Origin: Niabella drilacis
GTDB lineage: Bacteria > Bacteroidota > Bacteroidia > Chitinophagales > Chitinophagaceae
DNA length: 64,000 nt
Assembly (NCBI RefSeq): GCF_900101395.1
Contig: NZ_FMZO01000002.1
Coordinates: forward strand, 199,840-263,839
Reading direction: 5' to 3'
The translations under genes and the position numbers were made by a program. Numbering within the stretch: the stretch's first letter is position 1; each line of letters begins with the position of its first letter. This document shows positions 45,358-52,796 of the stretch, in pieces. Under the pieces are notes generated by a model that saw only the letters and a program-made list of their open reading frames with translations, was not told the origin of the DNA and did not search any database.

Positions 45358-45484
45358 GCGGTTGGATTTGAAAATTTGAAAATGGGAGAATGGAAAATTT
45401 TAAATGTAACAATGAGGAATCCTTTGTTGCTCTATGACCTTTCCTCCGGAACGAAATCTGCATCAAACTATAAGAGCCGGAAAT

Positions 45485-45631
45485 GTCAATGGTCAATGGT
45501 CAATAGTCAATGGTCAATAGTCAATAGTCAATGGTCAATGGTCAATAGTCAATGGTCAATAGTCAATGGTCAATGGTCAATGGTCAATAATCAATAGTCA
45601 ATGGTCAATGGTCAATGGTCAATAGTTAATG
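45485..45631. repeat. 21-unit heptamer tandem array (GTCAATR)
   Basis: Twenty-one uninterrupted 7-bp units of gtcaatg or gtcaata. The only exceptions are unit 16 (atcaata) and unit 21 (gttaatg). The last base alternates irregularly between G and A. Because 7 is not a multiple of 3, the open frames here are artefacts. The array lies in the 425-bp gap after the DUF4091 gene. Its relative with more divergent units follows sppA at 2299-2361. Confidence 0.95.
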
Positions 45632-47181: not shown

Positions 47182-47652
47182 TCAGGAAAGGAGGGACTGG
47201 CGCAACAGGAATTCCATCTGCCGGTTATTTTCTTCCAGCTTCTCGGCAATTTGTTTTTTAGAGCGGTTGGTGGCATAGAGGGCAAGCCCCTCCTTTATGG
47301 TTTGTCTGAGCAGGGCTTCTTCCCAGGGTTTTTGTATATATTTAAAAACCCGGCCCTTGTTAATTGCATCAACAACTGCATTGATATCTGCATAGCCCGT
47401 AAGCAACATCCGGATCGTATCCGGGTAGTCCTTTATAATTGATTCCAGAAATTCAATGCCCGTAGTTTCCGGCATCCGCTGATCGGTGATGATCAGGTGT
47501 ATCTCCTGTTCTTTTAATACCTGCAGGGCCTCGGCTACCCCCGGGGCAGTAAAAACGGAAAAATCTCTTCGGAAACAGGCTTTAAAGGAGTTCAGGTTAT
47601 GAATTTCGTCATCGACATACAAGACATTTGAATACTGAAGACTTTGCTCCAT
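47182..47652 (-). CDS. Response-regulator receiver protein with C-terminal coiled coil
   Basis: A 156-residue stand-alone receiver. Acidic residues DDE (14-16), the phosphoacceptor Asp57 in LIITDQRMPETTG, the switch Thr in LLTGYAD and the Lys in YIQKPWEE are all present. The DQRMP form is typical of RpfG-like and histidine-kinase-linked receivers. A short helical tail (KKQIAEKLEENNRQMEFLLRQ) replaces an output domain, so it may act as a phosphate shuttle or bind a partner. It is divergent, with 77 bp, from the ThiF-like gene. Its receiver closely resembles that of the receiver-kinase at 51705. Confidence 0.92.
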   Translation of the reverse strand: MEQSLQYSNVLYVDDEIHNLNSFKACFRRDFSVFTAPGVAEALQVLKEQEIHLIITDQRMPETTGIEFLESIIKDYPDTIRMLLTGYADINAVVDAINKGRVFKYIQKPWEEALLRQTIKEGLALYATNRSKKQIAEKLEENNRQMEFLLRQSLLS

Positions 47653-47729
47653 AGTTTATTTGGAATTAATATTTGTGTAAGTTTGTGTTTAGATGCTTTT
47701 ATGCGTAACTTCAAAATTACTTAATATTT

Positions 47730-48851
47730 ATGGAAAAAAACGCAACTGCTAAGGAATCAGCGTTGTTGCAGGCGTTGTCGGATCCCGGGCACGTCTATAA
47801 GCCCTTATTTTTTAGAATATATAATGATGATGATAAACAATTGTTCCTGAAACTGCAGGAAACGGTAAAGGACCTGGTTATTTATGATCAAATTTTAAGC
47901 CAGCTTCGTGAATATGTGAAGATTTGTTATCTTACGAAACTAAAGCCCGGCGATGACCTGCAGCCGTTCGTAAACGAGCTGCTGGGCAACCGCAGGCAGG
48001 AGGAATACGGGGTTTGGGTGTACTACCCCTGGTCGAAGAGACTGGTGCACCTGCTGGATGAGGAGGAGTTTGTGGCCCTGAGGACAAGCAGGAATACCTA
48101 CAAGATCACCCCGGAGGAACGGGAGCTCCTCCGGTCAAAAAAGATTGGAGTTATCGGGCTGTCTGTAGGACAGTCTATTGCCATTACCCTGGCCATGGAG
48201 CGGGTTTGCGGGGCGCTGCACCTGGCCGATTTTGATACGATTGAACTGAGCAATATGAACCGGCTGAACGTGGGTGTGCAGGATATCGGGCTCAACAAGG
48301 CCGTTTTGGCTGCGCGCAGGATCGCGGAGCTGGACCCCTTCCTGGAGGTATTATGTTTTGAGGAAGGGATCACCGCACAAAATTTAGACGCGTTCTTCTT
48401 AGAAAACGGGAAAATTGATATCCTTGTAGAAGAATGTGATGGGATTGATGTAAAGATCTCCAGCAGGTTAAAGGCCCGGGAACTGGGCGTTCCGGTAGTA
48501 ATGGACACCAATGACAGGGGGATGCTGGATATCGAGCGGTTTGACCTGGAGCCGGACCGGGCAATATTTCATGGGAGTATTGATGAAGGCATGAATACAG
48601 AAAAACTAAAAGGATTGACAAATGAGGAAAAAATTATCATTCTGGGCAAGATATTTGATCTTTCAAAAATCTCCGACCGGATGAAAAGGTCGCTTGGAGA
48701 AATGAACAAAACAATCAATGCGTGGCCACAACTTGCGTCCTCCGTTGTTTTGGGGGGAGCCATGGTTACGGATACCTGCAGAAGGATCCTGTTATCAGAG
48801 ATACACAGTTCCGGCAGGTATTACATAGATTTTAATGATTTAATCAATTAA
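47730..48851 (+). CDS. ThiF/E1-like adenylyltransferase family protein (Rv1355c-like)
   Basis: A 373-residue member of the ThiF/MoeB/E1 superfamily, which adenylates C-terminal carboxylates of small proteins or peptides. An unassigned N-terminal part (1-137) precedes a Rossmann fold with the nucleotide loop GVIGLSVGQSIA (140-151) and the E1 signature ADFDTIELSNMNRLN (166-180), then DIGLNKAVLAARRIAELDP. There are no CxxC zinc pairs and no obvious catalytic Cys, so sulfur or ubiquitin-like transfer by thioester is doubtful. Rv1355c-type proteins often carry a C-terminal nitroreductase domain; it is missing here. The acyltransferase-like gene follows after 11 bp, so they are co-transcribed. No ubiquitin-like or ThiS-like partner gene is seen. 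Confidence 0.82.
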   Translation: MEKNATAKESALLQALSDPGHVYKPLFFRIYNDDDKQLFLKLQETVKDLVIYDQILSQLREYVKICYLTKLKPGDDLQPFVNELLGNRRQEEYGVWVYYPWSKRLVHLLDEEEFVALRTSRNTYKITPEERELLRSKKIGVIGLSVGQSIAITLAMERVCGALHLADFDTIELSNMNRLNVGVQDIGLNKAVLAARRIAELDPFLEVLCFEEGITAQNLDAFFLENGKIDILVEECDGIDVKISSRLKARELGVPVVMDTNDRGMLDIERFDLEPDRAIFHGSIDEGMNTEKLKGLTNEEKIIILGKIFDLSKISDRMKRSLGEMNKTINAWPQLASSVVLGGAMVTDTCRRILLSEIHSSGRYYIDFNDLIN

Positions 48852-48862
48852 GAAACTGACCA

Positions 48863-49549
48863 TTGGAAATTGTAATAAGAGCGTTTAGAGCTACTACAGA
48901 CCCTGGCACGTGTTTGAATTTTATTGAAGGTCATCGTCGGCTGCTTGAATTACATTTTGGTATTGTTGCAATTACTTCAAGTAATCAGGACTGGATGTAT
49001 CATGATAATACATTTGTGATCGTTGCGGAAGACAAGGAAAGGACCAAGGTATATGGCGGCGCAAGGGTGCAAATGGCTGATGGGAAATTGCAGCTGCCCA
49101 TCGAAACTGCTATCAGCAAGTATGATCCCTCTGTACATACAATGGCCGGCCAGCCCGGCGTTTCAGAAATTTGCGGGTTATGGAATTCGACGGAAGTTGT
49201 CGGTTGGGGTATCGGAAGCTTCTTTATGAGCCGGGCAGGCGTGGCGGTAGCCTGTATGCTGAAATCTACAAAAGTTCTCTTTCTGGCGGCTCCCATTACC
49301 GTAAGAATGGGTAAAAGAATGGGTGCAGAAATTGAGACCTCCCTGGGCAACAATGGTAACTTCTTTTATCCAAAAGATGACTTTATCGCTACGGCTATGG
49401 CCATCAACGATTGCCCTGTTCTTTCAAAGGCCGATGAAAAAGAGCGGAACCGGATCCTTAGCATCGTTGAGCGCCCGGTACAGCGGGCGCCGGAAGATGG
49501 TCCCAAAGGGCAGCTGATGATCGACTATCAACTGGACATAACCGGCTAA
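48863..49549 (+). CDS. Putative GNAT/LuxI-fold acyltransferase
   Basis: A 228-residue protein that reads like the GNAT/acyl-homoserine-lactone-synthase/N-acyl-amino-acid-synthase fold. It has VYGGARVQMADG at about 63-74 (the beta-strand pair that in LuxI reads GxxRL), then VSEICGLWNSTEVVGWGIGSFFMSRA, and VRMGKRMGAEIE near the C-terminal strand. The family match is weak and made by eye. It starts with TTG at 48863; the next in-frame ATG lies too far in to leave a whole domain. It is 11 bp after the ThiF-like gene and 4 bp before the histidine kinase, which implies translational coupling. It might make an acylated signal or acylate a protein. A plain N-acetyltransferase is the conservative alternative. 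Confidence 0.5.
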   Translation: MEIVIRAFRATTDPGTCLNFIEGHRRLLELHFGIVAITSSNQDWMYHDNTFVIVAEDKERTKVYGGARVQMADGKLQLPIETAISKYDPSVHTMAGQPGVSEICGLWNSTEVVGWGIGSFFMSRAGVAVACMLKSTKVLFLAAPITVRMGKRMGAEIETSLGNNGNFFYPKDDFIATAMAINDCPVLSKADEKERNRILSIVERPVQRAPEDGPKGQLMIDYQLDITG

Positions 49550-49553
49550 TGTG

Positions 49554-51692
49554 ATGTATAAGCTGATAACTATATTCCTTTTCTCGCTTTTTTTGATCCG
49601 TGCCCAGGGGCAGCAGCTGACCAGCGTTGATGACAGCAAGAAAACGTACCTGGCTACGCATGCACAGATCGAATACCTGGAGGATCAGAAAGGCCAGTAT
49701 AGCTTCCCGGCCGTAACCAGGCAGCCTTTCCGGTCCTATAAAGGGCAGGTTCCCAATTTCTTTATAAGCCACTCCGTGTTCTGGTTAAGGATCAGGGTAC
49801 GCAACAATACAGCTTTTTCCCGTTTATTGGTCGCGCTCAGCCATCCCACCCTGGATGAAGTGGTGTTTTATGCCGTAAAAGGAGATGGAACGTTGGTGGA
49901 CTCGGTCCTGATTTCCGAAAAGGAGCCGTTCGGCAGCCGGGTCAATAAGAACCAGAACTACCTGTTTAATCTTACCATGGAAACGGGCAGCGAACAGACC
50001 GTTTATATTAAACTGTATGCGTCTGAGCAGATACTGGTGCCCATAGAAGTGGGTACTATTAAATCCATCCAGGAAGGGCTTGCATTAAAAGACCTTGTTT
50101 TTGGCTTGTACACCGGGTTGATCATGGCCATGTTCCTGTATAACTTTTTCCTGCTTTTTTCCACCAATGATAAAAGCTATTTTTATTATATTCTCTATGT
50201 GCTTTTTGTTGGATTAAGCCAGGCCATGCTCCAGGGATATGCCTTCCGGTTTTTGTGGCCCGGCTTCCCGGGTTTGAACGGGTATGCCAATGTGCTGATC
50301 CCGTTCCTCAATGGTATTGCCGCGGCGGAATTTATCCGGCATTTTCTGAGTCTTAAACAATTGTCGGCAAAGCTCAACCGGCGTATGCTGATCATTGAAC
50401 TGGCCTATTGCGTAGCTTTTGTACTCTGTATTTTAAAATTCAGGCAGGAGGCCCAGGTGGTGGTGCAATTTGTTGCAGCAGCAGGATCTGCCTACGTATT
50501 GGTTATGCTGAGTAACCTGAGCTACCGGAAAATAAGGGTTGCAAAATTCCTGTTGCTGGCGTGGACGGTTTTTTTGTGCAGCGTTATTATTTTCGTATTG
50601 AGGAATGCCGGTTTACTTCCTTATAACGATTTTACCTATTATGCCCTGCAGGTCGGATCGGCAGCAGAGGCCATGTTGCTTTCCCTGGCCCTGGCAGATA
50701 AGATCAATACCTATCGCCGCGAGGAGGAACTGGCCCGCAAGGAGGCCTTGAGGGTTTCGAGGGAAAATGAGCAATTGATAAAAGAGCAGAACATCATCCT
50801 CGAAAACGAAGTAAGGAACCGTACGGAAGAATTACAGCACACCAACGAAGAACTCAAGGAAGCCATGAACCAGATACAGCATACGCAGGCCAAGCTGGTT
50901 GAAAATGAAAAGATGGCCTCACTGGGTCAGCTTACTGCGGGCATCGCCCATGAGATCAACAACCCCATCAATTTTGTAACCTCCAACATCCGGCCCCTGG
51001 AAGCAGATGTAACGGATCTGCAGCAGGTGATCCATAAGTACGAAACGCTGGACCTGGCAAAGGACCTGCCGCCACAGCTGGCCGATATAGAAAAGTATAA
51101 AAAGGAGATCGACCTGGAGTATGTGTATGAAGAGATCGCGATCCTTCTTTCCGGCATCAGGGAAGGGGCAAACCGTACTTCCGAAATTGTAAAGGGGCTG
51201 AAGAGCTTTGCAAGGGTTGACGAAGCCAACTGGAAGCGGGTCGATATCAACGAGGGCATTGATTCAACCCTGCTGCTGGTCAAAAATACATTTCCGCAAA
51301 ATTTTCAGCTGATCAAGGAGCTGGGGACCCTGCCCAGGATCGAATGTGAACCGGGAAAGATCAACCAGGTGATCATGAATATTGTTACCAACGCGGTTCA
51401 GGCCATACAGGAACGCATCCTCGAGGACGGGCAGCAGGGGTTGTTAACCATAAAGACCTGGGAGCAGGATGATACCGTAAAAGTGAGCATTGGGGATAAC
51501 GGAAAGGGGATGCCGGAGGAGGTCCGGAACAAGATCTTTGACCCATTCTTTACGACCAAGGATGTAGGAGAGGGAACGGGGTTGGGCTTATCCATTGTTC
51601 AGGGCATTATCGAAAAACACAATGGCTCTATTCAGGTATTCACAGAAACCGGAAGAGGCACTACCTTTGTAATCAGTTTACCCGTTCGCTAA
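49554..51692 (+). CDS. 7TM-DISM sensor histidine kinase
   Basis: A membrane histidine kinase of 712 residues. After a signal sequence comes a 7TMR-DISMED2-type extracytoplasmic domain (about 25-165; [29 protein letters not shown]), which resembles carbohydrate-binding jelly-rolls. The seven-helix 7TMR-DISM module covers about 178-385, then a coiled coil (395-450). The HisKA domain has the phosphoacceptor His466 in [15 protein letters not shown]. The HATPase domain has N-box [13 protein letters not shown]1 DNGKGMPEE and G2 [11 protein letters not shown]. The ATG at 49554 is preferred over an in-frame GTG at 49551. It lies 4 bp after the acyltransferase-like gene and 12 bp before the receiver-kinase gene. 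Confidence 0.93.
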
Positions 51693-51704
51693 AATACAGC
51701 ATTG

Positions 51705-52796
51705 ATGCCCGAAATTAACGTACTTTATGTAGATGATGAGCAGCAGAACCTCAACTCCTTTAAAGCCGGTTTTCGTACCCGGTACCGGATCTTTACGGCC
51801 ATTTCCGTAGCGGCCGCACTGGAGATACTGGATCGGGAGGAGATTCATGTGCTGATATCTGATCAGCGGATGCCTGAGATAACGGGGGTCGAATTTTTTA
51901 AAATGACAAAAGAGCGGTATCCCCATATCCCAAGGGTACTGCTTACCGGATATACCGATGTTGAAGTACTGGCAGAAGCGGTAAACAAAGGCGATATCTA
52001 CCGGTATATTACCAAGCCCTGGGATGAGCTGGAACTGCACAACAGCGTGCTCAATGCTTATGACCACTACAAAGCAAACCGGGATCTCAGCGAGAAGATC
52101 ATTGAGCTGCAAAAGGCTAACGACGGACTAAACCGGTTTGTTTACAGTCTTTCGCACGAACTGCGGGCGCCCATCGCTTCCGCAATGGGTATCCTGGACC
52201 TGGTAAAAATGGAAGGCCGGACCGAAGAATCCGGTGGATACTGGAAACTGATGGATGCCTGTGTTCAGAAGCTGGATTACTATATTTCCCAGACCGTTCA
52301 GTTTTACAAAACGGCCCGCTTTAAAGCAGCGCAGGAGCAGATCCATTTTGAAGCCCTGGTGCGTTCCCTCATTGACCTTTACCGGACCTCCAACGGCACC
52401 AAAAATATCAATTTTAAGGTAGAGGTAGATGAAGCCGGGGAGTTTTACGGTGATAAATTCCGGATCGAAATAGTGATCGCCAACCTGCTCTCGAACGCGA
52501 TCAAATGCCAGCGCCCGGAAGAGCCGGATAAAAAAGTGGAGATCCGGATCACCGCAGGCAGTGAGGACGCCCGTATTATTGTAGCAGACAATGGCGTTGG
52601 CATGGAAGCGGCAGAGCAGGCAAGGATCTTTGATCCCTTCTTTAAAGGAGCACAGCCCGGCGGTTTGGGGCTGGGGCTATACATCCTGCAGGAGGCCCTG
52701 GAAAAGCTGAATGGCACGGTAACGGTGCACTCCATCAGGGGAGAGGGATCCCGGTTTGAAGTCCATGTTCCCAATAACCCGGAAAATAACGGGTAA
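51705..52796 (+). CDS. Receiver-histidine kinase (REC-HisKA-HATPase)
   Basis: A soluble 364-residue protein in which an N-terminal receiver drives a C-terminal kinase, the reverse of common hybrid kinases. The receiver has phosphoacceptor Asp53 (LISDQRMPEITG), TGYTD and YITKPWDE. The HisKA His151 is in YSLSHELRAPIASAMGI. The HATPase part shows N-box NLLSNAIKCQ, G1 DNGVGMEAAEQ and G2 GGLGLGLYI. I chose the ATG at 51705; a TTG at 51702 is also in frame. It is probably the direct acceptor of phosphate from the 7TM kinase 12 bp upstream, and in turn may phosphorylate another receiver such as the product of 47182-47652. Confidence 0.92.
   Translation: MPEINVLYVDDEQQNLNSFKAGFRTRYRIFTAISVAAALEILDREEIHVLISDQRMPEITGVEFFKMTKERYPHIPRVLLTGYTDVEVLAEAVNKGDIYRYITKPWDELELHNSVLNAYDHYKANRDLSEKIIELQKANDGLNRFVYSLSHELRAPIASAMGILDLVKMEGRTEESGGYWKLMDACVQKLDYYISQTVQFYKTARFKAAQEQIHFEALVRSLIDLYRTSNGTKNINFKVEVDEAGEFYGDKFRIEIVIANLLSNAIKCQRPEEPDKKVEIRITAGSEDARIIVADNGVGMEAAEQARIFDPFFKGAQPGGLGLGLYILQEALEKLNGTVTVHSIRGEGSRFEVHVPNNPENNG

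Follow-up and report, generated by a model that had tools for sequence, protein, structure and literature searches.

In a 64,000-nucleotide stretch of the Niabella drilacis genome (contig NZ_FMZO01000002.1, positions 199,840 to 263,839; hereafter the window, numbered from its first letter), five adjacent genes at 47182-52796 probably form a synthase-receptor signalling cassette that uses N-acyl amino acids or oxazolones. Four of them make up a tight operon on the plus strand, which encodes a ThiF-like protein predicted to be an N-acyl amino acid cyclase (47730-48851), a predicted LuxI/FeeM-like N-acyltransferase (48863-49549), a 7TM-DISM kinase (49554-51692) and a receiver-kinase (51705-52796), and a stand-alone receiver (47182-47652) is encoded alone on the minus strand. 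A sequence-only reading of this DNA had described the five genes, their strands, their domain types and the intergenic gaps of 11, 4 and 12 base pairs (bp), which were confirmed by the open reading frames (ORFs) and, for the domains of all but the acyltransferase, by Pfam, given ATG starts at 49554 for the DISM kinase and 51705 for the receiver-kinase. It had proposed that the first two proteins could make or modify a signal for the adjacent kinase or, more modestly, that they modify a protein of the phosphorelay. Gene linkage, enzyme swaps at the ThiF position and co-variation of the acyltransferase with the sensor were all observed, and they point to the first proposal over the second.

A single-protein search matched the acyltransferase in 12 of 296 genomes across the phylum. 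A single-protein scan of genome contigs reached Niabella only, whereas a profile reached far more, matching 12 of 292 genomes in the phylum, 76 of 395 in the class and 23 of 248 in the order (union, 97 genomes). The 100 loci compared here are the window, the surroundings from 96 other genomes and three of four Niabella loci. The fourth (L016, Niabella defluvii CP079215) was left out of the counts for its frame breaks, as was a second, weak match in genome G372 (25 bits). The L016 cassette is broken by many frame breaks over several genes, probably through sequencing error. In 93 of the 99 other loci, the acyltransferase has a DISM kinase downstream on its own strand, which with the window makes 94 of 100. 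The loci with a kinase cover 26 family-level and 56 genus-level groups, and the gene set, whose conservation the sequence-only reading had left to be checked, therefore extends well beyond the genus. Among the other loci having more than 3.5 kilobases (kb) either side, the kinase is downstream in 79 of 81. Three of the six loci lacking it (L168, L169 and L173) stop at a contig edge soon after the acyltransferase, and four of the six belong to one family. The receiver-kinase is downstream in 81 of the 99 other loci, and a related receiver lies near the acyltransferase in at least 80, of which 76 have it on the opposite strand; the figure for receivers is a minimum, because the profile for the receiver-kinase picked up stand-alone receivers as well (L106, L107).

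DISM genes are rare, with three matches in the window genome (6.1 Mb) and 43 over 18 carrier genomes (from 1 to 5 per genome), 5 of which have no DISM match other than the cassette copy. Because such rare genes are nevertheless downstream in 94 of 100 loci, the linkage is more than chance. A synthase linked to a dedicated receptor, as looked for in quorum sensing, is thus present as gene linkage in these 94 loci, and the making and sensing of a signal would be the predicted functions of the linked genes. No report of a linkage between this acyltransferase and a DISM kinase was found in the open-licence literature of PubMed Central (PMC).

The ThiF-like protein (Pfam ThiF, 4e-16) matched the NCBIfam family PRK07877 (Rv1355c family) with 464 bits over profile positions 8-339 of 722, corresponding to the ThiF half, and the full-length cut-off of 476 was not reached. 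It was 43-47% identical (tblastn) to proteins on 13 actinobacterial plasmid records, most annotated as Rv1355c family and others as ThiF. In a nine-sequence alignment it was 41-44% identical to three actinobacterial rows and had nucleotide (ATP)-site residues in common with them, including the Gly-rich, D..N.NR and CD motifs and an Asp at window residue 237. Rv1355c is TrzS, and for the TrzS of Mycobacterium smegmatis, cyclisation of N-acyl tryptophan followed by desaturation to an oxazolone has been demonstrated (PMC12856293, PMC10404671). Going by sequence, the window protein belongs with the cyclase half of TrzS. This likeness to a family shown to cyclise N-acyl amino acids is a point that the sequence-only reading did not contain. 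Asp237 would be the counterpart of the tested Asp217 of TrzS, a protein whose own sequence was not in the alignment. No desaturase, fused or adjacent to ThiF, was found in the window, and the single PRK07877 match in the window genome at E ≤ 0.001 was the ThiF half, in a search that did not extend to the genome's remaining nitroreductases. Across the 296 genomes sampled from the phylum, all strong Rv1355c-type ThiF matches (>390 bits, 10 genomes) and a contig-cut match in G109 fall in the cassette, and in the twelfth acyltransferase genome of that sample (G126) a methyltransferase occupies the ThiF slot.

This slot is exchangeable. Over the 100 loci it holds ThiF alone in 30 (including the window) and a fusion of ThiF with a nitroreductase-type oxidase in 53 (51 of the 99 other loci, plus two cut by contig ends). 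A class I methyltransferase of about 255 amino acids is present in 7, an ICMT-family methyltransferase in 4, an oxidase binding flavin adenine dinucleotide (FAD) in 2 and a Methyltransf_2 O-methyltransferase in 1; one locus (L109) has none and two are of unknown content. The oxidase, methyltransferase and ICMT assignments come from our own profiles, built on 3, 6 and 1 sequences, respectively, and the Pfam check comprised 2 fusions (one under the nitroreductase cut-off), 6 of the 7 class I methyltransferases and 3 of the 4 ICMTs. One FAD-binding oxidase adjoins its acyltransferase relative at 3089-5449 of L170, a 6.6-kb contig with no ThiF or kinase. On the acyltransferase tree, the slot class changed at least 10 times, and the distribution of the oxidase requires at least 14 gains or losses (a quick tree with some long branches). 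Two sisters from the same genus, L108 with a ThiF-oxidase and L176 with the O-methyltransferase, were joined at 100% support in the Shimodaira-Hasegawa-like approximate likelihood ratio test. All of these enzymes could act on an N-acyl amino acid, and in Planctomycetota, ThiF, nitroreductase and methyltransferase genes are reported to surround N-acyl tyrosine synthases (PMC12479983). Swaps among small-molecule tailoring enzymes argue for a small molecule as the substrate and against protein modification.

For the acyltransferase, the sequence-only reading had suggested a LuxI/GNAT-like enzyme, a view to be dropped if the protein aligned to an ordinary housekeeping N-acetyltransferase with unrelated neighbours. 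That outcome did not arise: the predicted model is LuxI/FeeM-like and the protein had no match in Pfam, NCBIfam or PADLOC, but ordinary GNATs scored about equally against the model. Among 15 relatives, one gave a weak Pfam match to the generic Acetyltransf_1 (0.0021), and none of the 15 matched the families of FeeM or of LuxI-type N-acyl homoserine lactone (AHL) synthases at an E limit of 1, although HMMER filters drop most matches above 0.1. A distant relative, L171, matched the FeeM family at E 0.045. Against PDB chains, the profile gave matches at E 1 or worse only, and tblastn of the protein against plasmids gave none. An AlphaFold model built from the 15 relatives (predicted local distance difference test, pLDDT, 90) had BjaI as its first Foldseek match, followed by MesI, RpaI and FeeM, with generic GNATs close behind. 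A second structural comparison placed two generic enzymes first (Z 16.4 and 16.3), then FeeM (16.1), TofI (16.0) and LasI, RpaI and BjaI (15.0-15.4), and aligned 170-192 residues in the LuxI/FeeM group against 146-147 in the two generic leaders. FeeM and BjaI are also the nearest structures reported for TyzA (PMC10404671).

A profile of 95 acyltransferases found the gene adjoining the ThiF match in four of eight actinobacterial regions, with weak scores of 14-19 bits (E 8e-6 to 3e-4 over 322 ORFs; next best about 4, and none under 4 with reversed sequences). This gene sits where TrzA would be expected. There was no match to the profile in the remaining four regions (L148, L149, L151 and L207); in Streptomyces L148 the ThiF gene does adjoin a GNAT, which was set aside as it was unmatched by the profile. 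In three Rhodococcus plasmid regions (L150, L208 and L210), the gene in the acyltransferase position and the Rv1355c-type gene have a GGDEF-domain gene as neighbour, reminiscent of the cyclic di-GMP neighbours noted for trzAS of Mycobacterium tuberculosis (PMC12856293). One cassette, L099, carries two acyltransferase genes in tandem.

The DISM kinase matched 7TMR-DISMED2 (4e-25), 7TMR-DISM_7TM (1.7e-46) and HATPase_c (1.9e-26). Its sensor part (49554-50699, limits from our own profile) consists of a periplasmic DISMED2 domain and seven helices, and is followed by the kinase part (50700-51692). In a model from 37 sequences (pLDDT 91), the sensor was predicted to have a RetS-like periplasmic domain (3jyb, template modelling (TM) score 0.81) above the seven helices; a Foldseek match to human Wntless was set aside (TM 0.24-0.34, root mean square deviation about 16-20 A). 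Phosphoacceptors are kept throughout, with His in AHEINNP of the DISM kinase, His in SHELRAP of the receiver-kinase (Pfam Response_reg, HisKA and HATPase_c) and Asp in DQRMPE of both receivers, the stand-alone one being a 156-amino-acid Response_reg protein (1.2e-19).

The synthase and the sensor vary together. Five congeneric pairs were profiled in 60-residue segments, and in L021/L022 the identity was 22-33% in the DISM sensor and then 73-97% in the kinase, with 40-53% in the acyltransferase and 75-92% in the receiver-kinase. L139/L142 and L108/L176 showed a similar step (sensor mostly 22-57%, kinase 73-93%), which was confined to the periplasmic part in L022/L025 (17-32%) and mild in L020/L157 (sensor 45-92%, kinase 90-98%). 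Among the three loci L021, L022 and L025, the kinase is 80-83% identical in every pair, and L022 and L025 group by acyltransferase (62%) and 7TM (76%) against L021 (44-46% and 35-37%, respectively); the flanking genes, too, place these two somewhat nearer to each other (mean identity 78 against 73%, with overlapping shadow ORFs included in the means). Some lineages do not vary, as the acyltransferase is 94-99% identical in four close Niabella loci.

In 24 disjoint nearest pairs, conditioned on kinase, receiver-kinase and receiver, the partial rank correlation between acyltransferase and 7TM was 0.61 (2 of 2000 permutations as high), and that between acyltransferase and periplasmic domain was 0.46 (26/2000). 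The controls in these pairs were lower, at 0.01 for acyltransferase with receiver-kinase, 0.01 for 7TM with receiver-kinase, 0.30 for acyltransferase with receiver (212/2000) and 0.25 for acyltransferase with kinase (278/2000). Given the kinase alone, acyltransferase and 7TM correlated at 0.58 in 45 disjoint pairs (0/2000). When both the kinase and the flanking genes were conditioned on, the value was 0.86 (0/2000) and the flanks showed no link to the 7TM given the kinase (-0.01) in 19 pairs (non-overlapping ORFs, window left out, kinase identity of 60% or more and two or more flanking genes in common; one pair without a flanking ORF). Partial Mantel tests over 90 loci gave 0.19 for acyltransferase and 7TM given kinase (0/499), 0.35 for acyltransferase and kinase given sensor (0/499) and 0.21 for difference in finishing class and 7TM divergence given kinase (1/499). 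Linked variation of synthase and sensor, as in quorum-sensing systems, is therefore present in the genes, and may reflect specificity; the pattern is that of pheromone systems which, like ComQXPA, fall into specificity groups.

We propose that the LuxI/FeeM-like enzyme, judged by its fold, family and neighbours, would join an acyl group to an amino acid. The ThiF-like enzyme would then adenylate the free carboxylate of the N-acyl amino acid and close an oxazolone ring, as suggested by the match to the TrzS cyclase. As no desaturase is fused or adjacent in the window, a saturated acyl oxazolone is predicted, or else the N-acyl amino acid formed by its hydrolysis, and in other cassettes the slot enzyme would oxidise or methylate the molecule instead. 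Oxazolones are reported to break down in acids and alcohols (PMC12856293). The product would leave the cell or partition into the envelope, where the DISMED2/7TM portion of the adjacent DISM kinase may bind it, given the linkage and co-variation. The DISM kinase would phosphorylate two related receivers, the stand-alone one and that of the receiver-kinase, and the output could run through another regulator outside this cassette. Joint change of synthase and sensor between relatives would give rise to specificity groups.

The self-contained circuit of the sequence-only reading was too strong a claim for the window, whose cassette has no DNA-binding output, although in three relatives (L108, L116 and L176) a LuxR-type response regulator lies immediately after the receiver-kinase. 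In four loci of one family (L021, L022, L024 and L025), a PorX-like gene (receiver and PglZ) is found upstream near the cassette; the Pfam assignment was made on L021 only, likewise for tsaE and alanine dehydrogenase. The PorX-like neighbour is possibly an output link, or possibly merely local gene order.

Several results weigh against a signalling cassette. Ordinary GNATs score level with FeeM in the second structural comparison, so the predicted fold alone does not decide the function of the acyltransferase. Sensors commonly outpace kinases in evolution, and the step in identity alone would not prove specificity groups. In the 19 pairs, acyltransferase and kinase were also highly correlated given the flanks (0.76), therefore part of the signal is that of an operon moving as a block. 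Finishing class showed no positive link with the periplasmic domain (-0.02, 303/499) or the acyltransferase (-0.12, 488/499). Neither an exporter nor a DNA-binding regulator is found within the window's five cassette genes. Two true exceptions (L141 and L171) and the short contig of L170 keep an acyltransferase relative without the kinase, so the enzymes can evidently be of use in its absence. Of the 296 genomes, 37 have strong DISM sensors but no acyltransferase (49 match at E 1e-40, of which 12 are carriers). In 17 non-cassette DISM regions from 14 genomes (13 of these 37, plus carrier G273 with a paralogue; the region L227 is a contig of 3.7 kb), no nearby ORF matched the acyltransferase profile at E 1e-3. 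The kinase parts in these regions reached no more than 178 bits with the cassette-kinase profile, compared with at least 385 for cassette kinases uncut by a contig end or frame break.

A rival explanation is a biosynthetic cluster with its own regulator, in which an antibiotic, surfactant or envelope lipid is made and the kinase senses another cue such as envelope stress or sugars. Related N-acyl tyrosines are described as antimicrobial (PMC12856293), a DISMED2 domain, that of NicD from Pseudomonas, reportedly binds carbohydrates (PMC8544897), and the enzymes without a kinase in L141 and L171, together with a ThiF relative that has no kinase listed next to it in annotated actinobacterial regions, would fit such a cluster. 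However, the acyltransferase divergence follows the sensor and not the receiver-kinase or the flanks, which would not be expected if the sensor answered to an unrelated cue. We regard this explanation as unlikely, though deserving of serious weight. Another explanation is that the kinase senses the product of its own cell only, as feedback or self-protection and not in communication between cells. The greater abundance of tryptazolones inside cells (PMC12856293) and the missing exporter are compatible with this, whereas acyl-tryptophan intermediates are reported mainly in the supernatant (PMC12856293), the predicted sensor has a periplasmic domain, and the swapped, matched synthase-sensor types resemble communication groups. 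We consider feedback alone improbable. The modest alternative of the sequence-only reading, in which ThiF and the acyltransferase modify a phosphorelay protein by E1-like conjugation or acetylation, would draw on the fact that ThiF proteins include E1 enzymes and on weak PADLOC E1 matches (best 2.8e-9), but it was rejected as very improbable because the Rv1355c cyclase match is far stronger, no E2-like, ubiquitin-like or deconjugase partner was found in the five cassette proteins (Pfam, the best 25 NCBIfam families and PADLOC), and methyltransferases or an FAD oxidase fill the ThiF slot elsewhere.

The synthase-receptor cassette shares parts with several known systems. As in OxzAB, TyzACB and TrzAS of Pseudoalteromonas and Mycobacterium, a FeeM-like acyltransferase adjoins a ThiF-like cyclase of the TrzS sequence family, and many Bacteroidota relatives carry a ThiF-oxidase fusion like TrzS. 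Unlike in those systems, the cassette is genetically linked to a membrane receptor kinase and receivers, and methyltransferases or an FAD oxidase can take the place of its ThiF. The window was searched for a desaturase, fused or adjacent, and has none, therefore the window pair was not classed as a full TrzAS pathway; by analogy, it would correspond to that pathway's first two steps. The predicted acyltransferase fold is shared with LuxI-type AHL synthases and FeeM, from which the cassette differs in the lack of matches to their Pfam families among the 15 relatives and in having a membrane kinase as partner, not LuxR. In ComP, the variable part is its sensor. ComQXPA of Bacillus likewise combines a signal-modifying enzyme and a receptor kinase in one locus and shows strong linked polymorphism, described as comQXP polymorphism and pherotypes (PMC4408185). 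Its proteins are, however, unrelated, and the cassette differs in its predicted non-peptide product, its 7TM-DISM receptor and the lack of a DNA-binding regulator in the window copy. The stieleriacine or N-acyl dehydrotyrosine clusters (NasY, ThiF, nitroreductase, methyltransferase) differ in that the main text of PMC12479983 mentions no sensor kinase. The receptors RetS, SagS and NicD have the same DISMED2 periplasmic domain and seven helices, but the passages of PMC8544897 drawn on here place no synthase beside them and describe NicD as carbohydrate-binding.

Between the receiver and the ThiF gene lies a 77-bp divergent region (47653-47729), which is likely to be a promoter region in both directions and is strongly conserved in an alignment of the window with three Niabella loci; a sigma-70 pattern scan of it gave background level only and was not informative. 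The acyltransferase starts with TTG in the window and three Niabella relatives and with GTG in the fourth (L016). Outside the cassette, the translation of an ORF at 45376-45597 contains a repeated peptide pattern (QWSMVNSQWSIVN...), which hints at a small intergenic tandem DNA repeat.

The physiological role of N-acyl oxazolones was called a major unresolved question in 2025 (PMC12856293), and if the signalling cassette proposed here is correct, oxazolones would gain a candidate receptor and a function. The cassette offers named hosts (Niabella species) and built-in specificity controls in the form of congeners that differ in their sensors while their kinase halves are similar. A wider reading, to which we give an even chance, is that this is a widespread, previously unnamed form of chemical communication in Bacteroidota, in which N-acyl amino acids with interchangeable finishing (to oxazolones, desaturated oxazolones and methylated or otherwise oxidised derivatives) and co-diversified 7TM-DISM kinases would keep separate groups among close species. 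If true, Bacteroidota would have an acyl-based signalling system of their own.

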